This document shows positions 1,388 through 50,686 of a stretch of DNA of 55,495 nucleotides, piece by piece. The DNA comes from a virus, in the IMG/VR virus record IMGVR_UViG_3300043449_001017, positions 1 through 55,495 of that record; one strand, written 5' to 3'. Under the pieces are notes generated by a model. The model had not been told where the DNA came from, did not search any database, and was given only the letters and a program-made list of their open reading frames with translations. Every line of letters starts with the position of its first letter. Position 1 is the first letter of the stretch. The translations under genes were made by a program, and so were the position numbers.

Positions 1388-1415
1388 TTGCGGGCCTCCT
1401 TTATGGCTGGCCTTT

Positions 1416-1468: not shown

Positions 1469-1475
1469 TTTTGTG

Positions 1476-1855: not shown

Positions 1856-1863
1856 TGAGAGGC

Positions 1864-2294: not shown

Positions 2295-2372
2295 GCCGAG
2301 CAGAGCACGCCTAACCGTGGGCCGAGCAGAGCACACCTAACCGTGGGCCGAGCAGAGCACACCTAACCGTGT
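2295..2372. repeat. Three tandem 26-base repeats
   Basis: The unit starts GCCGAGCAGAGCAC and ends CTAACCGTGG. Three head-to-tail copies lie at 2295-2320, 2321-2346 and 2347-2372, differing at only one or two positions. There are no spacers, so this is not CRISPR. The array directly abuts the AT-rich zone, an arrangement common at origins and partition sites. Confidence 0.8.
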
Positions 2373-2393
2373 TGGCTGTTTGTGAAAACAAAC

Positions 2394-2480
2394 AAGCAGC
2401 GCTGTTTAATTCAATGCAAACAGCGCTGATAAAAACAATAAAACAGAACGGTTTGTATTAGTTACAAACAGCACTGTTTT
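2394..2480. promoter_or_regulatory. Three AACAGCGCTGTTT-like dyads in AT-rich DNA
   Basis: The palindrome CAGCGCTG occurs at 2397-2404 and 2421-2428, and a near match inside ACAGCACTGTTT at 2468-2479. Flanking A and T runs extend the symmetry towards AAACAG-CGCTGTTT. This looks like a set of operator-type binding sites. No cognate regulator is identified; the XRE protein at 5374-5562 is one candidate. Confidence 0.5.
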
Positions 2481-2495
2481 AGTTGTTTATACAAA

Positions 2496-2560
2496 TAGTA
2501 CAAATGTACCAGTAGTACAAATGTACTATAGTACAAATGTACTATAGGACAAATGTACTA
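2496..2560. repeat. Four dyad iterons TAGTACAAATGTACTA
   Basis: Copies start at 2496, 2513, 2529 and 2545, a period of 16-17 bases. Each is itself an inverted repeat (AGTACA-AA-TGTACT), with small changes in the first and last. The region from about 2373 to 2575 is strikingly AT-rich in a GC-rich genome. Regular dyads in AT-rich DNA are typical of replication origins, centromere-like sites or cooperative operators. No Rep or ParA/ParB gene is adjacent. Confidence 0.75.
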
Positions 2561-2582
2561 ATTAAGAATTTGACGTGCAATA

Positions 2583-2608
2583 GGCGGGGCGCTAAAACCG
2601 ACCCCGCC
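2583..2608. terminator. GC-rich hairpin, possible terminator
   Basis: GGCGGGG at 2583-2589 pairs with CCCCGCC at 2602-2608 around a 12-base loop. It lies downstream of the minus-strand gene ending at 2682. There is no strong T-tract on either strand, so the terminator call is weak. Confidence 0.3.
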
Positions 2609-2628
2609 GTGTATGTGAATACCCCTTA

Positions 2629-2708
2629 AAAACCGGCCCTTCGCAAGTCCCTGGCCCTAAAAACCGGCACCCCGCAAGTCCCTAAGAACCGGCCGGCCGC
2701 AAGTCCCC
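2629..2708. repeat. Three degenerate AACCGGC...CGCAAGTCCC repeats
   Basis: AACCGGC begins at 2631, 2662 and 2687, each followed 3-5 bases later by CGCAAGTCCC. On the minus strand each unit reads GGGACTTGCG...GCCGGTT and two end in a short T-run. The third copy encodes the last residues and stop of the gene at 2682-2864, so the array overlaps the 3' end of a coding sequence. Function unknown. Confidence 0.65.
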
Positions 2709-2864
2709 AGGGCACAGCTCTTCCCACACCTCGAGCAGCTCGTGATCGTCAGCTGCCATCAGATCGTCGCGAGCTTGCAGCATCTGGTCTTCGAAAATGT
2801 CGCCGCGCTTGAGCATGGCCGCCACCAGGGAGGCCACAAGCTGTATCCGTTCGTCGTGGGTCAT
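2682..2864 (-). CDS. Small hypothetical protein, paralogue of its neighbour
   Basis: Sixty residues starting MTHDERIQLVASLV. It shares the pattern AML-x2-GDI-x3-Q and a later EL...CP with the product of the gene just upstream, so the two look like a tandem duplication. The ATG overlaps the upstream stop (ATGA). Its C-terminus is encoded by a copy of the AACCGGC/CGCAAGTCCC repeat. No known family. Confidence 0.6.
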   Translation of the reverse strand: MTHDERIQLVASLVAAMLKRGDIFEDQMLQARDDLMAADDHELLEVWEELCPGDLRPAGS

Positions 2865-3061
2865 TTTCCGATCAGTCGGTTCCATTCGTCTGGGCACCTG
2901 TCGTTGCATTCCTGGCGCAGCTCGGTGTTGTTCATACCGGCCAGCCAGGCTTCGGTCTCGCCGATCTGGCTGTCGGTAATGTCGCCCACCTCCAGCATTG
3001 CGTCCAGCATGCTGTCGATGACGCGGGCCCTGTCGGCCCTGGTGATATAGGTGCTGCCCAT
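2861..3061 (-). CDS. Small hypothetical protein, paralogue of its neighbour
   Basis: Sixty-six residues, MGSTYITRADRARVIDSM onward, with the shared AML-EVGDI-x3-Q core and a Cys-rich end (ECNDRCPDEW). ATGA overlaps on both sides place it in the middle of a coupled three-gene string. Function unknown. Confidence 0.6.
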   Translation of the reverse strand: MGSTYITRADRARVIDSMLDAMLEVGDITDSQIGETEAWLAGMNNTELRQECNDRCPDEWNRLIGK

Positions 3062-3393
3062 CAGACCAGCCCCAGCAGGCGCAGCCAGGAATCATCGGCA
3101 TCGGGCTCGATGATGTCGCCGGCAGGTGTCTCGCACACGCTGTCGAATGTCCAGCGCTCAACATCCTCCATTGCGGGCACCGGCCACCACTTGGAGTGCC
3201 AGCGCAGCTTGAGCACCTGGCTGCCATCGCCCTTGCGGGTGAAGCGGCCCACGGCGCCATCACGCAGGAGCTTCTGCACCGTGCCATCGGGCAGGGTGAC
3301 TTTCTTCACCAGATCCTGAGGCACCAGGATGTCATCGCCTTTGCGGCGGATGTTGACGGTGGCTGGAAACTGGTCGGCTTCTGTGATTTTCAT
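3061..3393 (-). CDS. Hypothetical protein (110 aa)
   Basis: Starts MKITEADQFPATVNIRRKGD. Contains a run of beta-type sequence and a Trp-rich segment (LRWHSKWWPVPAMEDVERW). No family recognised. First gene of the coupled string 3393 to 2682; its stop overlaps the next start. Confidence 0.6.
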   Translation of the reverse strand: MKITEADQFPATVNIRRKGDDILVPQDLVKKVTLPDGTVQKLLRDGAVGRFTRKGDGSQVLKLRWHSKWWPVPAMEDVERWTFDSVCETPAGDIIEPDADDSWLRLLGLV

Positions 3394-3464
3394 GATCAGA
3401 TAAGTGTTAATGGGACTCCCCGAGGGTAGGCGGGGGACTCCCCGAATGCCCTCGGTCGTTACAT

Positions 3465-3911
3465 TCAGTAATGATCTGGGCTGCCTACGTAGTTGAAGTC
3501 AGTGGGGTCTGGCTCAAAGGGAAGATCAAGCTGGCGCAGGTCCGTGTGGACCCAGCCTTGCTTGGGCACGAACACGTAGGCGTGCTCGCAGCCGCACTCC
3601 TGGAAATGATCGAGCAGGCCCTGGATCTCGGTGAACTCCTTTGGGGCCACCACAGCAGGCACCTCGCCACGATCGGCGTAGTAGAGCGGGCCCGACTCAG
3701 GAAGAGTTTCGCGATCCCAGCCCAGGTTGGTGTGGAGAGCACTGATGTCGCCGCCAGCCACCAACTCCTGCGCAGCCTCATGGCTGTCGTGGTGCGCCAG
3801 CAGCAGGGGTAGCTGATGACTGGGGTAGCCGTCGTAGTGGCAGTAAACAGCCAGGTAGCAGGGCTTGCGGGCAGTGCCGGTGCGGACGGCAATGACAGAG
3901 CGGGTGGCCAT
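3465..3911 (-). CDS. Conserved phage-type hypothetical protein (148 aa)
   Basis: The ATG at 3911 gives MATRSVIAVRTGTARKPCYL followed by VYCHYDGYPSHQL. This matches a widespread phage family of unknown function whose members begin RSVIA and carry a VYCHxDGYP motif, then a GD-S-L segment and an aromatic C-terminus. The upstream in-frame region lacks similarity, so the internal start is preferred. Role unknown. Confidence 0.7.
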   Translation of the reverse strand: MATRSVIAVRTGTARKPCYLAVYCHYDGYPSHQLPLLLAHHDSHEAAQELVAGGDISALHTNLGWDRETLPESGPLYYADRGEVPAVVAPKEFTEIQGLLDHFQECGCEHAYVFVPKQGWVHTDLRQLDLPFEPDPTDFNYVGSPDHY

Positions 3912-4363: not shown

Positions 4364-4699
4364 TCAGTAGCGAATGGTCACAGGGGCAATGCCGTCGACG
4401 GGGACGCCCAGGGCGACCGCTGCACCGGCAGAGAGATCAATCCGAGGAGAGCAGGCGCAGCGATCAGTGATGGGCACCACCAGCGACCTGCCAGCGTGGC
4501 GGATGGTCACCTTGGTGCCACAGGGCAGCCAGGCGTGGGCGGCGCTGATGCCCCAGTGGTCATAGCGCTGGCCGCAAGCCGTGCGCCCGCCGTGGTAGCT
4601 CGGGTGGTAGACGCTGGCGACGGTGCGCTCAGGGGTAGCGTGGGCCGCTCCGGCTTGCAGCGTGAGCAGGCCGGCAAACAGGAAGTGTCGAAGACTCAT
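4364..4699 (-). CDS. Secreted RlpA-like double-psi beta-barrel protein
   Basis: A signal peptide (MSLRHFLFAGLLTLQAGAAH) is followed by a single DPBB domain of about 85 residues. The family hallmarks are present: a SVYHPSYHGGRTACGQ opening, LPCGTKVTI, and VPITDRCACSPRIDLS, equivalent to the NDRGPF...RIIDLS motif of RlpA. RlpA proteins bind, and in some bacteria cleave, peptidoglycan lacking stem peptides. There is no SPOR domain. Between it and the next secreted gene upstream there is a 25-base gap. In a phage it may be a lysis accessory or a lysogenic-conversion factor acting in the periplasm. Confidence 0.75.
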   Translation of the reverse strand: MSLRHFLFAGLLTLQAGAAHATPERTVASVYHPSYHGGRTACGQRYDHWGISAAHAWLPCGTKVTIRHAGRSLVVPITDRCACSPRIDLSAGAAVALGVPVDGIAPVTIRY

Positions 4700-4724
4700 A
4701 AATCAGAACAGAATTCAGCAACCC

Positions 4725-4946
4725 TTAGCGACTGAAGCGAACGCAATAGTCGCCTTGGGTGTACCAGCCAATGGGACAATCCCGGCTGGTTTTCTTCACC
4801 GCTGGTTGTTGCGTGGTGGAGAATGGCACACAATAGCCATATTGCGTGTAGTAACCGATCGGGCATTGCCCCTGCTTTTGCACAGGTTGCTGCGCAAAGG
4901 CTGGAACACCTGCAAGCAATAGCAGTGCCGTAGCGAGTTTTGTCAT
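4725..4946 (-). CDS. Secreted Cys-repeat protein (73 aa)
   Basis: MTKLATALLLLAGVPAFAQ is a clear signal peptide with an AFA-Q cleavage site. The mature protein has two copies of one motif, CPIGYYTQYGYCVPF and CPIGWYTQGDYCVRF, about 32 residues apart. Similar CP-x-G-Y-x5-YC motifs occur in small exported proteins of cyanobacteria, function unknown. The gene start overlaps the upstream stop by four bases (ATGA). Confidence 0.7.
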   Translation of the reverse strand: MTKLATALLLLAGVPAFAQQPVQKQGQCPIGYYTQYGYCVPFSTTQQPAVKKTSRDCPIGWYTQGDYCVRFSR

Positions 4947-5284
4947 GGCTTCACACTGAATGCGACATAGCTTGTGGGGCGGTCGGTGGCAACGCCTTCG
5001 GCCTGCTCGTCGAGCTGCAGCTGGCGTAGGCGCAGGGCGACGGCATCGGCATGGCCGCTGTAGCTCCAGTTGTGACGCACCTTGCGGGTGGCGCGGAACT
5101 GGCCCAGCTCGATGCGGTCAAGGCCCTGGCGGTGCATGTGCTCAAGCAGCGAGGCCCGCAGGGGTGACAGCTGGGCCTCGAGGCGCTGGATCTCGTCCTG
5201 GAGGCGCTGGGCACGGCGAAGCTTGATGCCGATAGAGCCAGCAGCGCTGTAGGAACGCAAGCGGCGAGCAGTGATAACGGTCAT
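4943..5284 (-). CDS. Hypothetical coiled-coil phage protein (113 aa)
   Basis: The ATG at 5284 gives MTVITARRLRSYSAAGSIGI. Residues 20-55 form a heptad-like helix (LQDEIQRLEAQLSPLRASLL), followed by a beta-type segment with a W-S-Y motif. This arrangement recurs in small phage and cyanobacterial proteins of unknown function. It is coupled to the secreted Cys-repeat gene downstream. Confidence 0.6.
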   Translation of the reverse strand: MTVITARRLRSYSAAGSIGIKLRRAQRLQDEIQRLEAQLSPLRASLLEHMHRQGLDRIELGQFRATRKVRHNWSYSGHADAVALRLRQLQLDEQAEGVATDRPTSYVAFSVKP

Positions 5285-5373
5285 GATGCGCAGGTGGTTT
5301 GCTGAACGCCCAGGAACCGTACAGGCCCGCCGGACTCCCGGAACTGGCGCTGCAACAAACCGCAACATCAAGC

Positions 5374-5562
5374 TCACCGCGAGCGGCGACCGCTGAGCCT
5401 GCGCTCGATCGTCTCCAGCGCCAGGTGAAGAAAAGCCGGTATGGCTCGGGCCCCAGTTTCCCAGCGGGCGACCGTGACACGGTCAATGCCGAGCTTGTCG
5501 GCCAGCTCCTGCTGGGTCAGCTGCAGGCGCTCACGGAGCGCGACGAGGTCTTGCTGTGTCAT
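5374..5562 (-). CDS. XRE-family helix-turn-helix regulator
   Basis: Sixty-two residues, almost entirely one Xre/Cro-type HTH: LRERLQLTQQELADKLGIDR then TVARWETGAR. It lacks the peptidase-like C-terminal domain of a LexA/CI-type repressor, so it resembles Cro or a small antirepressor-type regulator. It lies downstream of the gp10-like gene and upstream of the coiled-coil gene. It is one of two candidates for a lysogeny regulator; the other is at 18524-18850. Confidence 0.75.
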   Translation of the reverse strand: MTQQDLVALRERLQLTQQELADKLGIDRVTVARWETGARAIPAFLHLALETIERRLSGRRSR

Positions 5563-6956: not shown

Positions 6957-7008
6957 CGAACGCAGTAAGACCAGCACAGACGCTAAGACAGGCAGGCCCC
7001 AGGAGGCT

Positions 7009-7253
7009 GTAACGCCCTGTAACGCGGACCGTTACAGCCAAATCCCAGTCAGGGCCTGGCTTGTAACGTAGTAACCTTTGTAACAAGAAATTTATTTTAT
7101 TAGGGAGGGGGTTCTGAGAGGGGGTCTGGGGGCTCTGGGGCTAAGAGTCTCTTTAAAAGTTTCTCCTGAGAAAACGTTACACGTTACCGAAACGCCAAAA
7201 CCCAGTCATACCAACGGGTTTCGGCGTAACGGGCACCGTTACTTTGTAACGGT
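7009..7253. other. GTAAC-repeat, AT-rich and G4-prone zone: possible replication origin
   Basis: About ten GTAAC/GTTAC elements lie in 245 bases: 7009-7015, 7019-7025, 7029-7036, 7061-7068, near 7070, 7078-7084, tandem ACGTTAC at 7174-7187, and 7226-7252. The last three include the palindrome ACCGTTACTTTGTAACGGT at 7235-7253. Between the clusters are an AT-rich tract (7084-7103, AAGAAATTTATTTTATTA) and a G-rich run (7103-7140). The zone sits directly downstream of the primase-helicase gene. Iterons, an unwinding-type tract and a replication gene together suggest an origin; an operator array is the alternative. Confidence 0.5.
7103..7140 (+). other. G-quadruplex-prone run
   Basis: Five G-runs of three to five bases with loops of one to eight bases, on the plus strand beside the AT-rich tract. 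It fits a relaxed G-quadruplex pattern. In an origin such a run could influence strand opening; no direct evidence. Confidence 0.5.
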
Positions 7254-22562: not shown

Positions 22563-23672
22563 ATGAAGCGGTGGGAAAGCGACTCGTCGGTGCCAGGGCT
22601 AGGTGTCATGGTGCTGCCGTCCGGCGTTCGCACCTGGTATTTGCGCTATCGCGAGCCGGACGGAAAGCAGCAAACGCAGAAAATCGGCCGCGACGGCATC
22701 ATCAACAAAACGATCGCCAGAAAGCAGGCGGTGCAGATCCTGGCCGAAGTCGCCAAAGGCAATGCGCCAGCGACGGCTCGCAAGCAGCGCCTGAATGCAC
22801 CAAAAATGATCGAGCTACAGGCTCGGATGGAGAAGGAACACTACGCCACGCTGCGCCAAAAGACCGCCTCCAACTACGAGCAAATCTGGCGCCTTCATGT
22901 CGCACCAACGCTCGGCTCCAGTCGGGTGCGCGATGTCACTCGTGAGCAGGTGATCCAGATGCTCAGCAAGCTGGCACCAGTGCAGCGAAACCGTGTGCTG
23001 CAGTGCCTCAAGGCGGCATTCACCATGGCCGAGGTATGGGGCTTGCGCCCTGAAGGCACCAACCCCTGCCGAAAAATCTCCAAGACCCCTGAGCGAATCC
23101 GCACTCGCTACCTCGCCGACCCCGAACGGGCCCGACTACTGGCATCGCTTGACGCTATGGGCACCACGCCACTTCGGTGGCGATTTGCGCAGCTCGTGCG
23201 CCTCCTGATGCTCACCGGCTGCCGTGTGGGCGAGATCTGCCGTGGTCGCTGGGAATGGCTTGACGACGATTTTCGGCTGATGGTGATACCAGCAGAGCGG
23301 CACAAGACGGGTGAGCGAACAGGCGAGCAGCGCGTGGTGCATGTTCCTCCTGCAGCAGCTCGCATCTTGAAGGAACTGCGGCAGCAATCCCATTCGCCTT
23401 GGATCATTGCTGGCGACGGCGAGAAGCACCTGGTGGGCTACCAAAAACTTTGGCTGGAGCTGCTGCGCACGGCCAAGATCGACAATCTGAAGGTTCACGA
23501 TCTGCGGCACAACTTTGCTTCTGTGGCACTGACCAAGGCCGGACTGACACTGCCCCAGGTCGGCAGTCTCCTCGGCCATGCAAGCCCCTCAACAACAAAG
23601 CGCTACGCCCACCTCATCGACGAGGGAGCGCAGCGGATGGTTGCAGACGTAGCTGGGAAAATTGGGCTCTAA
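22563..23672 (+). CDS. int: Tyrosine recombinase integrase
   Basis: A 369-residue integrase. The N-terminal part (GLGVMVLPSGVRTWYLRYRE) is an arm-binding domain of the P4-like type. The catalytic set is complete: R221 in TGCRVGEICRG, K248 in ERHKTGE, H312 and R315 in HDLRHNF, H339 in LLGHASP and Y348 in KRYAHL. It directly follows the attP-like tRNA-Thr fragment and its repeat arms. GGTGAG precedes the ATG. It converges with the late block, overlapping the last late gene by four bases. Confidence 0.95.
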   Translation: MKRWESDSSVPGLGVMVLPSGVRTWYLRYREPDGKQQTQKIGRDGIINKTIARKQAVQILAEVAKGNAPATARKQRLNAPKMIELQARMEKEHYATLRQKTASNYEQIWRLHVAPTLGSSRVRDVTREQVIQMLSKLAPVQRNRVLQCLKAAFTMAEVWGLRPEGTNPCRKISKTPERIRTRYLADPERARLLASLDAMGTTPLRWRFAQLVRLLMLTGCRVGEICRGRWEWLDDDFRLMVIPAERHKTGERTGEQRVVHVPPAAARILKELRQQSHSPWIIAGDGEKHLVGYQKLWLELLRTAKIDNLKVHDLRHNFASVALTKAGLTLPQVGSLLGHASPSTTKRYAHLIDEGAQRMVADVAGKIGL

Positions 23673-23959
23673 AGCGCCCAGGGACTGGCCTTGTAGGCCG
23701 GCTCGTCGTTTTCGGTGAGCACTGGCTGGGCCATCTCGTTGCAGATCATGTCGTGCAACGTGACATAGGCTTTCATCAGCTTGAAGTGATCGGCGAGAGC
23801 GGTGTACTCACTCTCGCCGACAATGCCAAACGCGTCGGGGTCTGCGTAGACCAGGAACATCATGGCCGCTTCTTGGATGCGACCGTCCCGGTAGAGCTGG
23901 AAGGCTGTTTCAAGGCCATCCTCGTAGCTGACAGTACCGTCGCGGGTGGCGAATCTCAC
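23669..23959 (-). CDS. Small hypothetical protein after RNR (96 aa)
   Basis: The GTG at 23959 overlaps the RNR stop (GTGA) and gives MRFATRDGTVSYEDGLETAF; a longer form from 23986 would overlap RNR. Helical, with GRIQEAAMMFLVYADPDAFG. Unrecognised. Last gene of the late block; its stop overlaps the integrase end. Confidence 0.55.
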   Translation of the reverse strand: MRFATRDGTVSYEDGLETAFQLYRDGRIQEAAMMFLVYADPDAFGIVGESEYTALADHFKLMKAYVTLHDMICNEMAQPVLTENDEPAYKASPWAL

Positions 23960-26223
23960 TGGGGTTTGGCAGCGGCAAACAGGCATTTGTCTCCGTCGCA
24001 CCCAGCAGGGCCCGCTTCGACAAGCTCTCCCACGTCATAGCGCTTCAGAGCTGCAAAGAAGTCCTGTTCGCCACGACGGGTTTCCACCTCAGCCGAAAGC
24101 TGGTCGAAAGTTGCCTTGTCGATCGGCTCGAACGGCAGACGGGGGAACGTCTCGTTGGCGTCAAAGCGGGCAAGCAAGGCCGCCGAGATGTAGCCCTCGT
24201 TGTCCTGGATGGCTTGGTAGATCGCGTCGGCGAGCGGCTCGATCTCGTTCTCCCGGTACTCAATCGTGGCAGAGGTGTTGTGCGTGGTGTAGTGCTTCTG
24301 CACCTGCATGTAGAAGTCGAACTGAGCCAGCGCCGAGATCTGGCTGATGTCGACCGCATCAGCGCCAGGCATGTCAGCCCAGGGCACGGCGGTGGGGATT
24401 TCCACCAGCCACTCGGTGCAGCGCTCGTCGAATGGATTGTCGAGCAGCTTGCCGGTCTCATCCTTGTCGGACTGGCTCGGGACCACGCTGTAGCCGTAGT
24501 CGATGCAGGCCATGGCCACCGGATCGTTCTTGCGGAACGTGATGCGGCGGATGAAGCGCTGAGACTTCGGCGGGTGCCAGCCAGGCGCAGCGCCGGTGAG
24601 CAGGCTCTTGGTGCCGGCGGGCTGCACGGTGGTGCAGCGGTTGGGGCGCTTCAGGCCATGGCGGTCGCAGTATTCCCAGACAGTGCCCTCAACCACGTTG
24701 CGCCAGCGCATCAGGTACGAGGCCTCAGCGGCCTTGTAGGCCTTGCCTTCGTCGGTGTCGGGGCGGCCAGCCACAAACCACTCCAGCCACTCAACGCCGA
24801 ATGCCTTCACGAAGAAGTCAAAAAGGCCGGTGAAAGACACGCCCACGATGGGGTCCAGCTCGCGGCTGACGCGGTAGCGCTCCACCTCAAAGCGGTGATT
24901 CAACAGGCAGGCCACGGCCAGGCCACCGGCACGGAAGGCGTCGTCCTGACCCCTGCTGTCAGTGGGATCGATCTGATTCAGGTGGATCTCAGACAGATTG
25001 CAGTGGAAGTCGGTGCCGAGGATCTCGCCGCAGGGGTTCAAGCCGTAGCGGCCGAGGCGGTGATCGAGTTCCTCCACGTCCATCTCGGGGCGCAGGTGCA
25101 GCAGCATGCTGGCGGCAGCCTCCTCGCCCTCCCGGCAGTACACGTCCACAAATTCCCGGCGGTACGCATCATTCCTGAGCAGGTCGCGGTTGGAGCGGGC
25201 GATAGCTTCGGGAGCGAACTGGATCGCGCCCTCACCGGAGTAGAACTGCTTGGTGACTGCCTCGAGCACCACCTCGCGACTGGGGCGCTCGTGGAACACT
25301 CTGGTGTGGTTAGCCATGCGCAGGGCGTCGCGCTCAGGGTCGATGCGCCAGGCGCCGTCGTCGCCCTGGAACCACAGGTTGTCCTTCGCGGCAGATGCCT
25401 CAAGGTCGTCTGCCGCGAATTGGCGCATGCCGGCGCTGCGGCGGATGTTGCCAGCCACGATGGTCACGGCAGCCTCATCGATCAGCAGGCAGCACTCCAC
25501 GGAGGTGAGCTGGCGGCCCTGGGCTTTCGACAGGATTCGGGCGACGCGCTGATACAGGTCGGGCAACTTGGCAGGATTGGCCATGCCACCGAAGCCCTTG
25601 AGGCTGGCGCCGGCGGGGCGAACGTTACCCAGGTCGATCTTCACCGCTACGTCGCCGGTGAACTCGAGATGCGTCGACAGGTGAAGCAAGGCCCGGTAGC
25701 TCTCAACCCAGCCTGCGCGGCTATCGCCGACCTCGATGATGGCGCTGTTGCCCCGGATCGAAGTGAAGGTTTCGTCGTCGCGCTCGCTCTCAGGCTTGGT
25801 GCCGATCGCAGTGACCTCCTCGATCACCAGGCGATTGCGGATTTCAGGCAGCTGGTCGATCAGGTGCGGCTCGATGATGGCGCCGGTGCCGGAGCCCATC
25901 ATTGCCAGGTCCATCATCAGCGCGAACGCTTCCCAGTCGATGAGATCCGTCGAGGTGCAGTTGTAGGCGCCGGAAAAGTTCTCGGGCTTCTCGATCCAGG
26001 GCGTCCCACCCACCCACAGCCAGCGGCCGGAGGGCAGGCAGCGCAGCTGCTCCTGCTGCTGACGGATCAGGTGGGTCTCGGCCTCTGTGAGCTTGCCAAG
26101 CCCCACCAGGCCATCGACGGTGCGCTGGGTGACCTCGCGCCAGCTCTCGCGGCCCTCAGGGCGCTTACGGGAGTAGGTGCGGTAGAAGACAGGATTGGCT
26201 GCAGGTGCGGTAGTGGGAAACAT
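23956..26223 (-). CDS. nrdJ: Class II (adenosylcobalamin-dependent) ribonucleotide reductase
   Basis: A 755-residue monomeric class II enzyme of the Lactobacillus RTPR type, also usual in Synechococcus. It reduces ribonucleoside triphosphates with a B12 radical. Visible features: YNCTSTDL (active-site Cys), MGSGTGAII, NPCGEILGTDF then HCNLSEIHLN (active-site and radical Cys), QPAGTKSLLTG, and the C-terminal redox pair in CDGDKC. Length matches the family, so there is no intein. It needs host-supplied B12. It sits with thyX and dcd at the end of the late block but after a terminator hairpin. Confidence 0.95.
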   Translation of the reverse strand: MFPTTAPAANPVFYRTYSRKRPEGRESWREVTQRTVDGLVGLGKLTEAETHLIRQQQEQLRCLPSGRWLWVGGTPWIEKPENFSGAYNCTSTDLIDWEAFALMMDLAMMGSGTGAIIEPHLIDQLPEIRNRLVIEEVTAIGTKPESERDDETFTSIRGNSAIIEVGDSRAGWVESYRALLHLSTHLEFTGDVAVKIDLGNVRPAGASLKGFGGMANPAKLPDLYQRVARILSKAQGRQLTSVECCLLIDEAAVTIVAGNIRRSAGMRQFAADDLEASAAKDNLWFQGDDGAWRIDPERDALRMANHTRVFHERPSREVVLEAVTKQFYSGEGAIQFAPEAIARSNRDLLRNDAYRREFVDVYCREGEEAAASMLLHLRPEMDVEELDHRLGRYGLNPCGEILGTDFHCNLSEIHLNQIDPTDSRGQDDAFRAGGLAVACLLNHRFEVERYRVSRELDPIVGVSFTGLFDFFVKAFGVEWLEWFVAGRPDTDEGKAYKAAEASYLMRWRNVVEGTVWEYCDRHGLKRPNRCTTVQPAGTKSLLTGAAPGWHPPKSQRFIRRITFRKNDPVAMACIDYGYSVVPSQSDKDETGKLLDNPFDERCTEWLVEIPTAVPWADMPGADAVDISQISALAQFDFYMQVQKHYTTHNTSATIEYRENEIEPLADAIYQAIQDNEGYISAALLARFDANETFPRLPFEPIDKATFDQLSAEVETRRGEQDFFAALKRYDVGELVEAGPAGCDGDKCLFAAAKPQ

Positions 26224-26230
26224 CGGTCGC

Positions 26231-26262
26231 GAAAAGAGAGCCCGGCGTTTTTGGCACCGGGC
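26231..26262 (-). terminator. Intrinsic terminator between thyX and RNR
   Basis: On the minus strand GCCCGGTG and CGCCGGGC form an eight-base stem with a CCAAAAA loop, followed by TCTCTTTTC. This is a good rho-independent terminator pattern. It would separate expression of thyX/dcd from RNR unless read through. Confidence 0.7.
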
Positions 26263-26274
26263 AGTGGGTATAAG

Positions 26275-26907
26275 TCAGGAGTCCGCGCCGTAGAGCGCTT
26301 CGCTGATGATCGGAAATTCGGCCGAGAAAATGGCCTTGATCGCGTCGGCGATTTCGCGGTGCTCAAGCTGGGTCGCCGGATCGCACCGAACCTCAAGATA
26401 GTGAATCCATGAGCGCAGCGTGCCGTGCATATAGAGCGTGGTCGGCGTGCAGAGCGGCAGGATCCGGCGGGCGGTTTCCTTGGCAATGCCGAGGCCCAGC
26501 ATCTCCTCGTAGAGGTCGTAGGCGTTCTCTAGGTGGTTGCCGAGCACATAGTCCCAGCTCGATTTTGCGACATCAGCAAGATCGTCGATGCTGTTCTGGC
26601 GGTTCTTGGTGTCCTGGCGACGCAAGGCAGGTGGCTTGGGCTTGCCAGTCACGGCATAGCGGGTGCTGAACTCCTGGAAGCTGAAGCTCCGGTGTCGAAG
26701 GATCTGCGCCGCAATGTCCCGCTCGGTATCGATCTGGACGCACATGGATGCCATTTCAAACGGCGACCAGTGCCTGTGCCTGATCAGATAGCGCAGCAGG
26801 CGGGGCCCGGTCTCCTCGTTGTCCTGGTTGGCCGGGTTGCTCACCCGCGCCATCTTGACGATCAGTCGCTCAGCATCCGGGGTGCAGTGGATCAGTTTGA
26901 CTCCCAT
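26275..26907 (-). CDS. thyX: Flavin-dependent thymidylate synthase
   Basis: A 210-residue ThyX from the ATG at 26907 (MGVKLIHCTPDAERLIVKMA). The ThyX signature RHRSFSFQEFSTRY is at residues 71-84. Also present are the N-terminal RVSNPANQDN segment and the PFEMASMCVQI strand. It makes dTMP from dUMP using FAD and methylene-tetrahydrofolate. The start overlaps the dcd end by 16 bases, so the two are coupled. Confidence 0.95.
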   Translation of the reverse strand: MGVKLIHCTPDAERLIVKMARVSNPANQDNEETGPRLLRYLIRHRHWSPFEMASMCVQIDTERDIAAQILRHRSFSFQEFSTRYAVTGKPKPPALRRQDTKNRQNSIDDLADVAKSSWDYVLGNHLENAYDLYEEMLGLGIAKETARRILPLCTPTTLYMHGTLRSWIHYLEVRCDPATQLEHREIADAIKAIFSAEFPIISEALYGADS

Positions 26908-27413
26908 GAGGGCATCACCTGGGGTTGAAGATTGTAATGGCCGACTTCGGCGTAGGAGATGTCCGGGATCCCAGCGGTCAGCATGAAGACCATCTGGCCG
27001 ATCTTGAGCCCGGGCCACAGGCGCAGTGGCCGCAGCTGTCGGGCATTGGTGAGCTCCAGCGTCAGCTTCGACCCGGTCCATTGCGGATCCGCAAAGCCCG
27101 CATGGCTGTGTTCTAGACCTTCGCGAGCGCGACTTGATTTGAGAAAGAAGAACCCTGCCACGTCGTCGGGCATGTTGAACGTCTCAAACGTCTCGGCGAG
27201 GATCCACTGGCCGGGCTTGAGCAGATAGGGATCGTCCTTACTGCAGTCGCTGATGTCGACGCGCACCAGCTCGTCGGCGGTGGCGCTCTCAATCATGATC
27301 TCGCTGCCGAGCAACAGGTCGTAGCTAGCCGGGTTGAGCTGCTCAACATCAAATGGGACGATCATCCGATCTTCTTCGCAGAAGCGGCGGATCTCGCGAT
27401 CGTGGAGGATCAA
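26892..27413 (-). CDS. dcd: dCTP deaminase
   Basis: 173 residues. The dUTPase-fold signature SSRAREGL (residues 93-100) and GFADPQWTGSKLTLEL (106-121) are clear; the E in LTLEL fits the deaminase catalytic acid. It turns dCTP to dUTP, feeding the ThyX pathway encoded next. Starts MILHDREIRRFCEEDRMIVP. Confidence 0.9.
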   Translation of the reverse strand: MILHDREIRRFCEEDRMIVPFDVEQLNPASYDLLLGSEIMIESATADELVRVDISDCSKDDPYLLKPGQWILAETFETFNMPDDVAGFFFLKSSRAREGLEHSHAGFADPQWTGSKLTLELTNARQLRPLRLWPGLKIGQMVFMLTAGIPDISYAEVGHYNLQPQVMPSWESN

Positions 27414-29778: not shown

Positions 29779-32700
29779 CTAGCTCAAGCGATAGGTCACG
29801 AAAGTGTTGGCCGCCGTGCGTCGTGAGGCAAAGCGACCGGAGGTGCCAGTGGCAACAGAGCCGGAGCCGACAATGGTGTGAGCGGTACCAGCTAGCACAC
29901 GAACCAGACTGGGGCCTGTGTTGATGACACTCCACTGGAAGGTCAGGTTTGTGTAGATACCGTTGAATCCAGCTTCTGTGAGTGTACCGGTGGGCAGCGT
30001 CATGTCAGTAGCGGCTGCTGACGTGCTGGTGATGATGCCGGTTTTCAGGTTTGCAACCGTAAGGGTTGCGGTGGCGTTGACTGCAGCAGGAGCGGACTGG
30101 TTGTAAGCAACAACGCGATCTGAAGTGACCCGCCAGGCTTCTGAAGGCGTTCCGCTCGCTGGCGGGGTGGTCATGATCTCTATGCGCCCTGGCATCACAC
30201 CAAAGCTGGGGTTGCCATCTACTACTGCTTGGACGCGAGCAGCGGCTACGCGAGAGAATCCATCTCCACCGCTCCAGCTCATCAAACCCAGAATGGTCTC
30301 ACTTGCAACCAGCGCGAATGCGGCGGGGTCGGTTCCGCCGGACCGGGTCATCGCCAGGACGCAAGGCCCTGCCGTAGTAAAGACACCGATACCTTCGTTG
30401 CCCGTGCCCGAGATGATCAGCTTCTGGCTTGTATTCCATCCGTTGATATAAGTGCTCGTCCCCAGTAGCAGCCTGCCGGTGTTGTCGATTCGGGCCGCCT
30501 CCTGACCGCCTTCTACAAACGCCAGTTCATCCGCCGCAGGCCAATAGATTCCGGTGTTGGTGTCGCCGTTTGTTGCCAGTGACGGAGCGGCAAGCGATCC
30601 CGCGCCGACCTGCACCTGTCCGGCGAAGTAGTTGGGCGCCGTGCCCACCATGAAGCAGTTCCAGTTGTTAGCGCCGGAGGCGATGGCGCCGTAGAACCCG
30701 TAATTGTTGGTGGCACCGTCCAGGGTGGAGCTGGCACTGAAGCCGATCTGGTTTGTCAGCGTGGTGCTGGCGCCCAGGGTGCCGGTGGCTGCCTGGTAGT
30801 GAATCAGCGATGAGATGGACTGGCTGCCAACAGTGGACAGGCTGGTGCCAATGCCAACGGCGGTTGCGGTGACATCAGATTGCACCGTGCCGTCGATATA
30901 TTGCGCCCAGGCCGTGGTGCCGCCGGTGACTGCCCTGCTGTTGCGGAAGCCGACGTTTGCGTTTGCGGCGGTGCTGCCCAGGGCCAGGCGCTGTAGGCGC
31001 ACAATGCCGCCACTCACCCCGTCAACAGTGTTCACATACAAGTCAGCCCATGCATTCAGGGCATTGTTGTGCGCAAAGACACCGGCGACGTTGGGGTAAG
31101 TTCCGAGGAAGACGGCGCGATCAACAGTGGAGTTTTTGCTGAGAATCCTTCCGTACCAAGCAGCATTAGCACCGTTGTGTTGATTAACAATGGCCTGGTC
31201 CGCTGCTGCGGAGACTGAAGCGGCGGCGTAGTTGGTGTAGTTGGAGGAGTCCAGAACGGTCCTCCACGATGTCCAGGTGCCGCTGTTTCTGCCGCGTACA
31301 GCAATCTGACCAGTCCGGTAATCGCCATAGATTTGGTGAACCCAAGACGCATTGTAACCTTGCGCGTAAAGAGCGCCGTCTACCTGTCCGAATAAAGAAA
31401 CACCGGTAACGTAAGCATGTCCGTTATTGGTAAGAGAATCCGGGCCGGCGACGGGGGTGTTGAGGTTGGAATTTGTGAAGCCGCTGAGATTAGATGCAGT
31501 GGTTGCCGTTCCAGCATTGCCCGTAACGTTGATACCCCAAGTCCCCGAGGCGCCGCCGCCGGTCAGGGATGGCGAGTAGCTGGTGTAATTGCCGTCTGTA
31601 AGAATTGTCCGCCATGGGTTCCACGCAGCCGCATCATCATTGCGAGTGCGAATCTTGAAGTCATTGCCTCCTGAGTAGGCGCCGACCAGCTGGCAGGAGT
31701 AATCGATATCTCCATTGAGTCCTCCAAATGCAATAAATGGTCCAGGGGGCTCCCCTGATCCGCCATAGGTGAACCCCATTTCAGGGGTGCTAATCGACGA
31801 GTTCAGGGACGTGCCGTCAGTTGTGTTGATCCTTGTGCGACGCTTCAGAATTGCCCGGTTAGACGAGACACCCCCAAGGCTTGCAGCGCTTCCAGTAATA
31901 CTGATCCCCCACGTGCCAGTAGCGCCCGTGCCAGTCGTGGTGGCGTAGGTGTTGGTGTCGAGCGAGTATGCACCGGCGGCAGTCTTGCGGATCAGGCCAC
32001 TTGTGCCCGCCAGGCCAGCGATACCAGTGAGCTCTGCGCTGATCGGCTGGTTGCCCGAGGCCGAGCCCGTCAGGTTGGCGGTGATGGTGCCAGCCGAGAA
32101 GTTGCCAGAGGCGTCACGTGCTACCACCTTGCTGGCGGTGTTCGCACTGGTGGCGTCTACCGCGAAAGTGCGGGCCAGGGCCCCGTCAAACGTGCCGCCA
32201 GAAGTCAGGTATGTCCCAGCCGTCAGTGCTGCGGGGGTGCTGGCCGTGACCGTGATGTTGGCCGAGCCGTTGAAGCTGACCCCGTTGATGGTCCGTGCTG
32301 TGGCCAGGGTGGTGGCCGTCGCCGCGTTCCCAGTGACCGAGATCCCCCAGGTGCCCGTCGCGCCGGTACCGTCCTTGGCCGGGGCGTCGTTGGCGATCTC
32401 GGCCTGCACGAAGGCCGTCGTGGCGAGTTGCGTGGTGTTGGTGCCAACCGCCGCTGTAGGGGCCGCAGGAGTGCCCGTGAAGGTTGGGCTGGCCAGCGGC
32501 GCCCGGCTGGTGTCCGTGGGGTGAACGTGATCACCACGGGCAAACTCGAGCGAAGTCCCAACTGCTGCCGTGCCGTTCATCGGCGGCACCACATCAGCGC
32601 CCTGGCCGATCACGAACGCCGTAGTGGCCAGCTGCGTGGTGTTGGTGTTGACGGCTGCCGTGGGCGCTGTGGGGACACCCGTAAGCGCAGGGCCGGCGAG

Positions 32701-33072
32701 CGGTGCGTAGGCCTGCGCCCGAACGTAGGCCGTGGTCGCAATGGCCGTGCTGTTGTCGTTCGTGGCTGGCGTGGTGCTGGTGCCGCCGCCGTTCAGTGCC
32801 GCCGCGCCTGTGACCGTCAACGCCCCGCCGATGCCGGCCGCCCCGGTGGTGCTCAGCCCCGTCAGCGCATAGGTCGTGGTCAGCTCTGCCCATGCGCTAC
32901 CGCTCCACTTCTTCCAGCGGTTGGCGCTGCTGTCCCACCGAATGGTGCCGGTGACCAGGTTGCTGAGGGTGCCGCTGTCAAACTGCAGCGCCAGGTCTGT
33001 GTCCCGAGCCTTCAGCTCCGAAAGGAAGTCTGTGTAGAGCGACGTGAGGGTGGGGTTGTTCCAGTTGGCCAT
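29779..33072 (-). CDS. Long side tail fibre / receptor-binding protein
   Basis: 1097 residues, low in Cys and rich in Thr, Ala, Gly and Asn. The N-terminal part (KARDTDLALQFDSGTLSNLV, then TIRWDSSANRWKKWSG) is a fibre-attachment region. Repeats of the phage collar type follow: two units with APTAAV-NTNTTQLATTAFV, then several GTWGISVTGNAATA-type units. The C-terminal part has a WRTIL/WRTVL segment repeated twice and a final beta-rich domain (VRVLAGTAHTIVGSG). It would bind the host surface. The start overlaps the preceding stop (ATGA). Confidence 0.85.
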   Translation of the reverse strand: MANWNNPTLTSLYTDFLSELKARDTDLALQFDSGTLSNLVTGTIRWDSSANRWKKWSGSAWAELTTTYALTGLSTTGAAGIGGALTVTGAAALNGGGTSTTPATNDNSTAIATTAYVRAQAYAPLAGPALTGVPTAPTAAVNTNTTQLATTAFVIGQGADVVPPMNGTAAVGTSLEFARGDHVHPTDTSRAPLASPTFTGTPAAPTAAVGTNTTQLATTAFVQAEIANDAPAKDGTGATGTWGISVTGNAATATTLATARTINGVSFNGSANITVTASTPAALTAGTYLTSGGTFDGALARTFAVDATSANTASKVVARDASGNFSAGTITANLTGSASGNQPISAELTGIAGLAGTSGLIRKTAAGAYSLDTNTYATTTGTGATGTWGISITGSAASLGGVSSNRAILKRRTRINTTDGTSLNSSISTPEMGFTYGGSGEPPGPFIAFGGLNGDIDYSCQLVGAYSGGNDFKIRTRNDDAAAWNPWRTILTDGNYTSYSPSLTGGGASGTWGINVTGNAGTATTASNLSGFTNSNLNTPVAGPDSLTNNGHAYVTGVSLFGQVDGALYAQGYNASWVHQIYGDYRTGQIAVRGRNSGTWTSWRTVLDSSNYTNYAAASVSAAADQAIVNQHNGANAAWYGRILSKNSTVDRAVFLGTYPNVAGVFAHNNALNAWADLYVNTVDGVSGGIVRLQRLALGSTAANANVGFRNSRAVTGGTTAWAQYIDGTVQSDVTATAVGIGTSLSTVGSQSISSLIHYQAATGTLGASTTLTNQIGFSASSTLDGATNNYGFYGAIASGANNWNCFMVGTAPNYFAGQVQVGAGSLAAPSLATNGDTNTGIYWPAADELAFVEGGQEAARIDNTGRLLLGTSTYINGWNTSQKLIISGTGNEGIGVFTTAGPCVLAMTRSGGTDPAAFALVASETILGLMSWSGGDGFSRVAAARVQAVVDGNPSFGVMPGRIEIMTTPPASGTPSEAWRVTSDRVVAYNQSAPAAVNATATLTVANLKTGIITSTSAAATDMTLPTGTLTEAGFNGIYTNLTFQWSVINTGPSLVRVLAGTAHTIVGSGSVATGTSGRFASRRTAANTFVTYRLS

Positions 33073-46720: not shown

Positions 46721-47143
46721 TCAAGCTAGAGAGAGATCGGCAGCCTGAGTCCGGTAGCGGATGGAATAGTCCATCATCACCACGCCCGCAGGCTGATCTG
46801 CATCGATACTATCGAAGACCACACGAACCGGGACGATTTCGCTGACAAGTTCGAGAAGCGCTGAGTTGGTCAGCAATCGCTTGTGAACGTCTTCGACAAC
46901 TGGGTCTGCAAGCTGGTCGGGGACTGCGCCGCGAACCACAACCGCAATTCGCACGATCAGGCGCCAATCAAGCTTGGGCACCACGCCATTGTCGGCATCG
47001 TCCGTAATTGGCTCGACGACAATCGCTGGACTTTCGGATCGCGCCAGGGCCGACGCCCTGCTGCGATAGATGCGGTTGCCCACCTGGGCGGTCCCGGCAA
47101 GCGCCGTAGCTACAGCGGCGAGAATGGTTTCGCGTTTTGTCAT
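46721..47143 (-). CDS. Tail terminator / completion protein
   Basis: 140 residues: TILAAVATALAGTAQVGNRI, then IYRSRASALARSESPAIVVE, and a later FDSIDADQPAGVVMMDYSIR. This matches gpU-like tail terminator proteins in size, order and sequence pattern. Coupled to the connector gene by ATGA. Confidence 0.75.
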   Translation of the reverse strand: MTKRETILAAVATALAGTAQVGNRIYRSRASALARSESPAIVVEPITDDADNGVVPKLDWRLIVRIAVVVRGAVPDQLADPVVEDVHKRLLTNSALLELVSEIVPVRVVFDSIDADQPAGVVMMDYSIRYRTQAADLSLA

Positions 47144-47415
47144 GTGCGCTGCAGGTAAAGGTCGCAGAATTGGCCGTCATCAAGCAGCACGTTTTCGCGA
47201 ACTTGGTAAGAGACGCCGTTCACGGAAATGCTATCGCCGTACTTAAGCGTCCCAAAATCTGACGTTTTTGCTGTGAGCCTGTAGTCGGTGGTAAGCACCA
47301 TCCCATCGGCGACCACTTGACTTGGCGTGTCCAGGATGCCCAGTGCGGTCACTGCACCGGCAGTGCAGCTGACCCCGAAGTCATCCAGGAAGACATTCAG
47401 ATCCTCTGAGATCAC
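47140..47415 (-). CDS. Head-tail connector, FII-like
   Basis: 91 residues from a GTG overlapping the upstream stop (GTGA). DLNVFLDDFGVSCTAGAVTA, then GILDTPSQVV, and YQVRENVLLDDGQFCDLYL. The D-F-G-V opening, central beta segments and terminal L-DG-F-x-x-L-L resemble lambda gpFII-type head-tail joining proteins. Confidence 0.75.
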   Translation of the reverse strand: MISEDLNVFLDDFGVSCTAGAVTALGILDTPSQVVADGMVLTTDYRLTAKTSDFGTLKYGDSISVNGVSYQVRENVLLDDGQFCDLYLQRT

Positions 47416-48428
47416 AGCGGCACCGCCTTGTGTCGTGCAATCAGGCTAGCCGCATCTGCAGCTTGCACTGCGACCTCGGTGCCAGACCAGGCTGGCTGGC
47501 CGCCGATCATCACGTCACCGGTCAAACGCACGCGAATCTCGCCCTTTGCATTCACCGGCGTGGTGACGCGGCGCATCTGATCGACCCGGATCGTCTCGAT
47601 TGCGCAGTCGAGATCGTTGCGGCCGTAGGACACGAGCGCCTTTTGTCCAACCAGCTCGAGGCCGCCAGGAAAGACGCACAGCGGCTGCCAGCCTCTAGCT
47701 GTTTCAGGTGCTCCCCATTCCTCCTCTGCCGTAATCACCGGCCCAGCTGACATCATCGTTGGCGCATGCGGCGCTGTGGCACTGAAGGCCACCCATGCCG
47801 CGTGATACAGCCGACTCCGCCGAGGGTGCTTCTCCCAGCTGTGGAACATCGCCAGTTTCTGTCCCTGCCAGTCAACTGCCGGTGTTCCGCCGCTCATTCG
47901 ACCCCAGCGCCAACGCAAAGGAGCATTTCGCCACTCCTGCACTACGTCGTCGCCATCAAGTTCGAGCACAACCCAGCCGCTAGCGCCCATGTCATAAACG
48001 CAGCGCAATGCGCCCTCGGCTTCAAAGAAGGTCCAGTTCTTCTCCTTGCTGCTCCAGTTATTGGCGCCGTACCTCGGCACCCACATCTGCGACAGGCTCC
48101 ACGAACGGCCCTTTTTCACTAGCCGGCCATAAGCCTGTACGCACTTCCACCCTTCCGCCTCGCCGTACTTGGCGATCGAAAAAGCGATGTACGGCGATCC
48201 GCCGTACATGAACAGGCGCGGGTCTTCCAGTGAGCACCCGGCCGGGATGCCTGGCACTTTCAGTCGCTGGTTGCGCAGCACGTTTCGTGCCGCATCCATC
48301 TCAGCAAGCACGATCTCGCTGGCCTTGAAACTTTTCGGTTCAGACCGATACGCCAACAGAAAGCCCTCCCCGGCCGAAACCAGGGAGGGGTTGTAGTTCC
48401 GCTTGGCTTCAACTAGCCCAGCAATCAT
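47412..48428 (-). CDS. GH130-like beta-propeller protein fused to a small phage capsid-region domain
   Basis: 338 residues. Residues 1-285 read as a five-bladed propeller related to GH130 mannoside phosphorylases and related glycan-acting proteins: NPSLVSAGEGFLLAYRSE, SLEDPRLFMYGGSPYIAFS (EDPR 68-71), EKNWTFFEAEG, GGTPAVDWQGQKLAMFHSWE, VFPGGLELV and SYGRND (267-272). EDPR is where GH130 keeps its catalytic Asp. Residues 297-338 (RVRLTGDVMIGGQPAWSGTE) match a short domain often encoded as a separate small protein after phage capsid genes. Lies between capsid and connector genes, coupled to the latter. It could modify or bind host glycan or decorate the head. Activity unproven. Confidence 0.7.
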   Translation of the reverse strand: MIAGLVEAKRNYNPSLVSAGEGFLLAYRSEPKSFKASEIVLAEMDAARNVLRNQRLKVPGIPAGCSLEDPRLFMYGGSPYIAFSIAKYGEAEGWKCVQAYGRLVKKGRSWSLSQMWVPRYGANNWSSKEKNWTFFEAEGALRCVYDMGASGWVVLELDGDDVVQEWRNAPLRWRWGRMSGGTPAVDWQGQKLAMFHSWEKHPRRSRLYHAAWVAFSATAPHAPTMMSAGPVITAEEEWGAPETARGWQPLCVFPGGLELVGQKALVSYGRNDLDCAIETIRVDQMRRVTTPVNAKGEIRVRLTGDVMIGGQPAWSGTEVAVQAADAASLIARHKAVPL

Positions 48429-48430
48429 GC

Positions 48431-50686
48431 TCAGCTCAGGGCACCGGTGCCGTAGCAGAAGGCGCCGGGATGCTTGACAGCGAAGTCGATGTCCTGCAGC
48501 GCGATGATGCGAACGGTGCCGCTGGTGGCGCCGGCGTAGGGGTCGAGAGTCAGGTCAAGACCAGACCACATGCCCATGATCATCTTGTCAAAGGCACCGA
48601 ACACGATGTCGTCAAATGCCAGCTGGTTGGACACGACGGCAGGGTAGCCGTTCACCTCGTTGTTCTCGTACACGAAGCCAGCAGCCACGGCAGAGCCAGA
48701 CTTGGCGGTGGACTTCAGAGCACCGCGAGCAGCGGCGTTCATCAGGTAGAACAGCGAGCCGGCGTCGGCGTTGTCCTTGGCCACCTCGGTCTCCATGTCG
48801 ATCAGCTCGGCGAAGGTGCCGTAGCCGGTCAGAGCCTTGGTGTTAATGCCGACAGTGTTCACCAGGCCGCGAGGCTGGTTAGAGGTGCCGGAGCCGTACA
48901 GGCCAGCCCGGTCAATCTCGAGGGCGATCACACGAGCCAGGTCATTGCGGACCATCTGCTCAACGTCCACGGAAGACTGAAGCAGCAGGCGACGGCTGTA
49001 GTCGACGTAGGCGCCCACGGTCTTGGGCGACATGGTCACCTGGTCCAGGGTCTGCTGGCTCTCGGTAGGAGCGTTGCCTTCACCCACCCAGTAGGCGGTA
49101 GCGGCAGCAGTCTGGCGAGGGATGGCAATGTTGCCCTGCAGGCCATTCAGCACGGTGGCGCCCACCTGGGCCAGAGCCAGCTTGTTGCGGAGCAGCTCGA
49201 TGAAGCTGCCGGCCAGCAGGTCGGTGGCGACCAGGTTGCCGCCAGCGGAGGCAGGGCTGGTGGCCAGGTCGCGGCGCAGCACTTCGTTGGGCACCATCAG
49301 ACCGTTGGCGGGCTTGCCGTAGGTCTTGGATGCAGCTTCAGACACCTCACGCTCGAAAGCGGCGGCCTCTGCGGCTTTCTTGTCGCCAGGATTGGCGAGG
49401 TAGTTCAGTGCGCGAAGGAAGGAGTAGCTGCGGGTCTCCTTGTCGTTCAGGCCCACCTCGGAGGTGGTGTCGATGCGGTGCTCCACTTTGGTGCTGCGAG
49501 TGTCGATTTTTTCAAGGAAGGCAGCGCGAGCCTCGTCAAGGCTGCGGCCGCCGTTGATCAGCTCGCCAGCAAGCTCGGACATGCCGTGCTTTTCGCCGAG
49601 AGCAGTGATGGAAGCGATACGGCTACGCTCGGCCTCGACGGCCTTGGACCGGATCACCTCCACGTCAGGGGTGGTGTTCTCCATTTGAACCTCAGGTTCT
49701 TGAGTGGGTGATGCGGCTGGGGCCGCAGAGTCGATCGAAAGCGACCGGCCGATCCCGATGGTCGGGTCTGCAGGGATGCTAACCACCGATACTTCGTAGG
49801 GAGCCCAGTTGGTTGCTACGAAGTTATCGCCACGCTCCTCCATTTTGTTGATGGAGTAGCCGAAGCTGACCCCGCGAAGGACATTGTCCTTCACGTCGGC
49901 CATGACCTCCTTGGCGAAGCTATTGCGGGAGAAACGCACTTTGACGTAACCCCGCTTCTTGCTGCCGTCGACCCATGCACGCTCGACGACACCCACGACC
50001 TTGTCAGGGTTGTGGTTGAAGAGCAGAGGAGCTCCGTCGTTGAGACGGCTCAGATCGGCTGCTTCAATTTCGTGGCTAAGCACTTCGTTTCCAAAGTACC
50101 TAGGCACGGGATACTCGGAACTAAAGGGGAACTCAAAGGAGCGCTCCTCTACTTCCGAGAAGACGGTGGCTTCAGTGCGTTGGTACTTACCTTCCAGTGA
50201 GCGCAGAGCTGTGGTCTTGGTCAGAGCACTGAAGCGATGACCGGCCATCACGTCGGTCTCATTCCAGCCGTCCGCGCCCTTGCGGTAGACCGCGATCAGC
50301 GCAGCTGGATCTTCCTCCGTGCCGACGATCTCGAAGCTGCTACTTGGCACATCGATGCGACCGTTGCGCTCGACCTTCTTGATCTGCCCTTGGGCTTGGC
50401 CACCGGGCGTGTTCCACTTGACGAAGTCGCCGACGCTTAGGGCGTCAGCTTTTGCTCTGTCGCCCATCGGCATCGGAGCAGACTCCTCGGCCATCTCCTC
50501 GGTTTCGTCCTCGGACTCCGGGTCTTCGCCCGACAGCGTCTCGACCGTATCCTCGACGATCTCGGCCATATGCTCGGCCACGACCTGGCCGATGGTCTCG
50601 CCGATCGCGACTACCTGCTCCTCCGTCAGATCGTGCATGGCACGCTCCGCGCTAGAGGTTTCAGTTGTTTCCTTCAGTTCGTCCAT
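48431..50686 (-). CDS. Prohead protease - major capsid protein fusion with tudor-like domain
   Basis: 751 residues. An acidic helical N-terminus (1-75) is followed by a tudor-like domain near 80-160 (SVGDFVKWNTPGGQAQGQIK), then an S78/HK97 prohead protease near 195-310 with H in LLFNHNPDKVVG and S in LRGVSFGYSI. From M335 comes the capsid part: a delta-like propeptide, then LVATDLLAGSFIELLRNKLA, the HK97 fold, and VKHPGAFCYG at the end. The protease would cleave the fusion to free capsid. An internal ATG at 49684 with GAGG five bases upstream could give capsid protein directly. Confidence 0.9.
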   Translation of the reverse strand: MDELKETTETSSAERAMHDLTEEQVVAIGETIGQVVAEHMAEIVEDTVETLSGEDPESEDETEEMAEESAPMPMGDRAKADALSVGDFVKWNTPGGQAQGQIKKVERNGRIDVPSSSFEIVGTEEDPAALIAVYRKGADGWNETDVMAGHRFSALTKTTALRSLEGKYQRTEATVFSEVEERSFEFPFSSEYPVPRYFGNEVLSHEIEAADLSRLNDGAPLLFNHNPDKVVGVVERAWVDGSKKRGYVKVRFSRNSFAKEVMADVKDNVLRGVSFGYSINKMEERGDNFVATNWAPYEVSVVSIPADPTIGIGRSLSIDSAAPAASPTQEPEVQMENTTPDVEVIRSKAVEAERSRIASITALGEKHGMSELAGELINGGRSLDEARAAFLEKIDTRSTKVEHRIDTTSEVGLNDKETRSYSFLRALNYLANPGDKKAAEAAAFEREVSEAASKTYGKPANGLMVPNEVLRRDLATSPASAGGNLVATDLLAGSFIELLRNKLALAQVGATVLNGLQGNIAIPRQTAAATAYWVGEGNAPTESQQTLDQVTMSPKTVGAYVDYSRRLLLQSSVDVEQMVRNDLARVIALEIDRAGLYGSGTSNQPRGLVNTVGINTKALTGYGTFAELIDMETEVAKDNADAGSLFYLMNAAARGALKSTAKSGSAVAAGFVYENNEVNGYPAVVSNQLAFDDIVFGAFDKMIMGMWSGLDLTLDPYAGATSGTVRIIALQDIDFAVKHPGAFCYGTGALS
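49682..49697 (-). promoter_or_regulatory. Internal ribosome binding site and start for capsid protein
   Basis: Inside the protease-capsid ORF, minus-strand GAGGTTCAAATG gives GAGG five bases before an in-frame ATG (MENTTPDVEVIRSKAVEAER). Initiation here would make a 417-residue capsid precursor with its propeptide. This would let the phage make more capsid than protease. Confidence 0.55.

Follow-up and report, generated by a model that had tools for sequence, protein, structure and literature searches.

Why should a viral gene that resembles GH130 enzymes lie among the genes that build the virus head, and what might its product do there? The question is raised by the window analysed here, a virus contig of 55,495 bases taken at its full length, in which terminase, portal, capsid, attachment, terminator, tube and J-like tail genes follow one another in order. 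An initial annotation, made from the sequence alone, had read the gene as a GH130-type propeller fused to a small capsid-region domain, and suggested either a virion-linked glycan enzyme or lectin or a new head decoration. Taken as a whole, that interpretation is partly supported.

A GH130-like propeller gene in the head operon

The open reading frame is real. It runs on the minus strand from an ATG at 48428 to a TGA at 47412-47414, and the plus strand at 47412-48428 is not open. The gene starts 2 nt after the gene for the HK97-type capsid and overlaps the attachment gene, which is followed by a tail terminator (phrog_4204). Its placement between capsid and connector genes, with a GTGA overlap, had been noted before and agrees with the Pfam assignments of the neighbours (Table 1); the overlap is kept in the intact relatives checked. 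Twenty close homologues in IMG/VR share 62-84% identity with the protein and the same gene order where checked, which together with low dN/dS places the feature far beyond chance. The upstream protease and capsid form a single protein of 751 aa, in which residues 86-131, near the N-terminus, give a weak TUDOR-like match (PF11160, E 7e-4).

Judged by terminase and capsid, the window's closest relatives in culture include the Synechococcus phages S-LBS1, S-CBS1 and S-CBS3. The tail fibre of the window (29779-33072) ends in about 120 residues nearly identical to those of S-LBS1 A11, a gene that sits between the attachment and terminator genes of S-LBS1. From these relatives and the tail fibre, a cyanophage identity is plausible. 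Elsewhere in the window (22563-23672 and 23956-27081), a tyrosine integrase has as neighbours a class II (B12-dependent) ribonucleotide reductase and a thymidylate synthase.

GH130 (PF04041) is the only Pfam family matched by the window protein. The score of 21.7 bits (E 1.1e-4) is below the gathering cut-off of 26 bits, and the protein is therefore called GH130-like here and not filed as a GH130 member. Some relatives exceed the cut-off, those in the contigs L017 (27.6 bits) and L025 (42.4 bits). Single-sequence searches of the PDB gave nothing useful and profiles alone gave matches: a profile of 21 viral sequences found Lin0857 (E 4.3e-15), Teth514_1788 (4.6e-13), Teth514_1789 (1.5e-12) and Uhgb_MS (about 9e-8). 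An AlphaFold model built from the viral alignment (pLDDT 89.3, pTM 0.81) agrees with the profile, as each of the best 26 PDB matches in Foldseek is either a GH130 enzyme or a protein of that group solved by structural genomics (E to 1.8e-10, TM about 0.6), the latter kind also matching the viral profile. By its match to GH130 structures, the predicted fold is of the five-bladed propeller type that had been proposed.

The motif blocks named in the initial annotation are all present, namely EDPR (residues 68-71), GGTP (180-183), FHS (195-197), VFPGG (252-256) and SYGRND (267-272). In the profile alignment, N13, D69 and D272 fall exactly on Asn28, Asp92 and Asp281 of Teth514_1788 (numbering along the PDB chain differs by one). 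These are the mannose-binding residues of that enzyme and correspond to Asn73, Asp131 and Asp344 in the MGP of B. fragilis (PMC4264767), and the matching Asp is essential in BT3780 (D142N, PMC4599007) and in BT1033 (D101A, PMC10619541). All three lie within the 17 invariant columns of the 21 viral sequences, some of which are only 20-25% identical to the window protein; the probability of this by chance is about 1e-4. R28 and H196 are likewise invariant. In the alignment, R28 lies opposite an Arg of Teth514_1788; judged by its spacing, it probably corresponds to the +1-subsite Arg89 of BT3780, while K130, R177 and H196 are candidate basic residues for phosphate binding, placed by alignment and of approximate equivalence. 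Three basic residues bind phosphate in GH130 phosphorylases, and a pair of Glu marks the hydrolases; the viral protein could phosphorolyse, hydrolyse, transfer or simply bind its sugar. When the supposed pocket around EDPR is viewed by alignment, the residues of the -1 sugar site are conserved, which indicates that the Asn/Asp/Asp mannose (-1) site of GH130 is retained. Since this site is kept, the propeller would most likely bind a beta-mannoside or a similar sugar.

Table 1. Features of the propeller gene and its immediate neighbours in the window.
Feature	Position	Strand	Details or basis
GH130-like propeller and post-capsid mini-domain fusion protein	47412..48428	-	338 aa
Prohead protease-major capsid fusion, directly upstream	48431..50686	-	PF04586 E 1e-9, PF05065 E 1.5e-50, phrog_617
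Head-tail attachment protein (Phage_attach), directly downstream	47140..47415	-	PF05354 E 4.6e-10
GTGA overlap (4 nt) of fusion-gene stop and attachment-gene start	47412..47415	-	sequence
GH130-like propeller domain, residues 1-282	47583..48428	-	profile against PDB, Foldseek, dN/dS
Linker, residues 283-296 (14 aa)	47541..47582	-	dN/dS 0.94, lowest pLDDT
Post-capsid mini-domain, residues 297-338 (42 aa)	47415..47540	-	HMM of stand-alone copies
Asn13, aligned with Asn28 of Teth514_1788 (-1 subsite)	48390..48392	-	invariant in 21 sequences
EDPR, residues 68-71; Asp69, in the place of the candidate catalytic Asp of GH130, aligns with Asp92 of Teth514_1788	48216..48227	-	
Lys130 (KEKNW motif), unchanged throughout the viral family; close to the position that aligns with a Lys of beta-1,2-mannoside-active GH130	48039..48041	-	
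His196 of FHS, invariant; the GH130 phosphorylases shown have a conserved His at the aligned position	47841..47843	-	
Asp272 of SYGRND, aligned with Asp281 of Teth514_1788 (-1 subsite)	47613..47615	-	

A fused mini-domain and a missing cement gene

The C-terminal 42 residues had been taken for a segment that is normally encoded separately, and this is borne out by an HMM that draws solely on stand-alone post-capsid proteins (19 distinct ones) and that matches residues 299-335 (E 1.6e-5). Against Pfam, the exact C-terminal segment has no match. By this family match, the mini-domain was once an independent post-capsid protein, which has its own gene of about 70 aa in 59 capsid relatives, with stand-alone counterparts in S-LBS1 (A06) and in an unannotated ORF of S-CBS3. 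The latter encodes about 74 aa and lies at about 6957-7180 (L027), right after the capsid gene.

The fusion is present in every complete member of the propeller clade. Within the clade, the propeller has a median dN/dS of 0.18, the mini-domain one of 0.24 and the linker one of 0.94, so that both domains are under purifying selection and the linker is under no constraint, as expected for two working domains joined by a loose tether. No internal in-frame start codon before the mini-domain is conserved across the clade, which suggests that the clade produces the mini-domain solely as a fusion.

Comparison of 80 loci with a related capsid places this gene in a wider pattern. The gene after the capsid is the propeller in 19 of them (17 readable through the attachment gene) and the stand-alone mini-protein in 59, where it is followed in nearly all cases, if the contig extends that far, by a protein of 125-136 aa. 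Five of eight members of this second family match Pfam Bbp16, the best at E 2.5e-5 and just below the cut-off, and the family profile matches the BPP-1 cementing protein (3j4u) with E 1.9e-10. In BPP-1, Bbp16 is the jelly-roll protein that cements the head, and infectious particles depend on it (PMC3863775). Two proteins currently annotated as 'hypothetical', S-LBS1 A07 (L026:6735-7124) and S-CBS3 gp05 (L027:7168-7545), are BPP-1-type cement proteins.

Among the 58 loci readable through the attachment gene, 17 carry the propeller without cement, 40 the mini-protein with cement, one (L130) neither propeller nor cement, and none both. The 58 do not count as independent cases, since the cement loci include many that are almost copies of one another, and the exchange took place once. 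Six-frame searches for a cement gene of the PF21190 (Bbp16) type found none in the window, and none was found in nine other propeller-clade contigs of 43-57 kb, which were searched whole. In the capsid tree, the propeller group forms one clade nested in cement-bearing clades (support 85/96), so that parsimony puts propeller gain and cement loss on one branch. Loss and gain are a single event in one clade and hence one observation, and the case of L130, cement-free yet with no propeller, also weighs against tying the two together. The propeller did not replace the cement at the exact spot, since it precedes the mini-protein and the cement gene comes after it. What is new is that a propeller clade does without the BPP-1-type cement that its capsid relatives carry. 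This tie to cement loss makes head decoration the stronger half of the original idea.

At 43-57 kb, the propeller-clade contigs are longer than S-LBS1, S-CBS1 and S-CBS3 (about 30-35 kb), and the change in decoration may accompany a larger head and an altered architecture. Within the clade, seven contigs (L002, L005, L009, L011, L013, L016 and L017) cluster at 53-57 kb.

What the fused protein may do on the virion

We put at about an even chance the reading that the gene encodes a putative two-domain head protein, a glycan-binding or glycan-cleaving decoration that replaces the lost cement. The mini-domain, as the small post-capsid protein of this lineage, would dock the product on the assembling head, and the propeller would thereby be carried on the capsid and displayed outside; the mini-protein could instead be internal or act in assembly only. 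The propeller would take over the decoration role of the BPP-1-type cement, if the two indeed share that role. Its pocket may bind, and perhaps slowly cleave or phosphorolyse, terminal beta-mannosides or a similar sugar, presumably of the host sheath, exopolysaccharide or biofilm, and virions could be helped to stick to the cell surface layer or to move through it.

A bolder version holds that an enzyme-competent GH130-type propeller replaced a jelly-roll cement as the capsid decoration of a cyanophage, and that it is the first propeller-fold and enzymatic one. We regard this as possible, at about one chance in three. To our knowledge, no propeller-fold or enzymatic capsid decoration was known before. 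If true, capsid decorations would be exchangeable for catalytic modules, and cyanophages could act on the sheath or slime of their hosts via the head and not the tail.

The wider viral family bears on these readings. Neither the protein nor its distant kin gave any tblastn match in 50,697 phage records or in 72,556 plasmid records. Homologues that are ordinary head proteins would have spoken against the initial annotation; with no homologue among the 50,697 annotated phage records, none is known as such. Two motif-pattern scans of genome contigs, with patterns that need the exact KEKNW-type motif, confirmed no cellular relative. In the small phage contig L025, a Mu-type portal fused to a C39-like peptidase is followed by the GH130 protein and then by a minor head protein (433-3890 and 4614-5411). 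GH130-like genes therefore occur in the head modules of at least two unrelated phage groups, the propeller clade and that of L025.

Other relatives keep different company. In three contigs (L035:5917-7483, L037:5638-7487 and L042:5599-7471), a conserved methyltransferase, 46-56% identical between contigs, comes after the GH130-like gene, which also has a conserved protein of 555-640 aa beside it; the predicted structure of the 555-aa protein has a pLDDT of 32. In a 54 kb virus contig (L041:4846-6477), the GH130-like domain is fused behind an N-terminal part that looks glycosyltransferase-like by eye and has no Pfam match, near a GroES-like ORF and a methyltransferase. In L032, the domain is fused behind a GT4 glycosyltransferase (PF00534, E 2.7e-6), and large contigs of the L022 type carry what appears by eye to be a giant-virus-like glycosyltransferase cluster. 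Structural matches in BFVD are mostly giant-virus proteins, several of them named LicD, fucosyltransferase or pyruvyltransferase. That several distant viral relatives sit with glycan-synthesis genes counts against the decoration reading and favours a biosynthetic role.

The main rival draws on these relatives. It supposes a GT108-like enzyme, using GDP-mannose or mannose-1-phosphate, that adds or trims a capsid sugar at assembly time; the mini-domain would deliver the enzyme to the substrate, and on the virion the work would be done by the glycan coat rather than by the enzyme. The fusions and clusters of L032, L022 and L041, the adjoining methyltransferase of L035, L037 and L042 and the BFVD names all fit it, as does the literature on GT108 enzymes, which have the fold of GH130 and act both as transferases and as phosphorylases (PMC8950772). 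However, the window proteins that were scanned included no recognisable product of a glycosyltransferase or sugar-nucleotide gene, and this reading leaves unexplained why cement was lost at the same point and why all complete clade members have the enzyme joined covalently to a head protein. We consider capsid glycosylation unlikely for the window protein, and keep it at roughly one chance in five because the other viral kin point to glycan synthesis.

Less likely again is a purely structural propeller, a captured fold without sugar function that now does the bracing of the capsid once done by the cement. The exchange with cement suits it, as do the larger contigs of the propeller clade, whose head architecture may have changed, but the invariance of N13, D69, D272, R28 and H196 over 21 viral sequences would then be unexpected. 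A cytoplasmic enzyme of carbohydrate metabolism, an auxiliary metabolic gene in the head operon by chance, is improbable, for although GH130 phosphorylases are cytoplasmic (PMC4599007) and no signal peptide is evident by eye, the fusion to a post-capsid domain in all complete clade members and the overlap with head genes speak against it, and no other sugar-metabolism genes were recognised nearby.

The finding also makes it testable how a lineage without cement stabilises its capsid, given that cement is essential in BPP-1 (PMC3863775).

Comparison with known systems

The closest characterised proteins are the GH130 beta-1,2-mannoside phosphorylases Lin0857 (5B0P), Teth514_1788 (9FJ8) and Teth514_1789 (7FIP) and the mannoside synthase Uhgb_MS, with profile homology at E 4e-15 to 1e-7. 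The window protein has the fold of the phosphorylases, by Foldseek, and their Asn/Asp/Asp mannose site in common. Unlike them, it scores below the Pfam cut-off, carries the viral KEKNW motif and is fused to a phage head domain. The GT108 mannosyltransferase-phosphorylases of Leishmania also have the GH130 fold, by the literature, and viral kin of the window protein accompany glycosyltransferases; the GT108 structure 6Q50 is absent among the matches listed (50 structures, 18 sequences).

On the phage side, Bbp16 of BPP-1, with its homologues S-LBS1 A07 and S-CBS3 gp05, belongs to the same head operon, and its gene is missing from the propeller clade. In contrast to the window propeller, Bbp16 is a jelly roll, an unrelated fold, and is encoded downstream of the mini-protein and unfused. 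The small post-capsid proteins such as S-LBS1 A06, which are weakly DUF7210/DUF7302-like, are homologous to residues 299-335; they stand alone in every relative found outside the propeller clade, whereas in the window protein the homologue is fused.

A 2020 review lists five folds of decoration proteins (beta-tulip, beta-tadpole, OB, Ig-like and knotted helix), and no propeller (PMC7602432). Glycan-binding head decorations such as Hoc and pb10 are known, and the known folds are small binding or bracing domains. It is with the carbohydrate-binding head decorations, T4 Hoc, T5 pb10, SPP1 gp12 and phi29 gp8.5, that the window protein most likely shares its mode of action.
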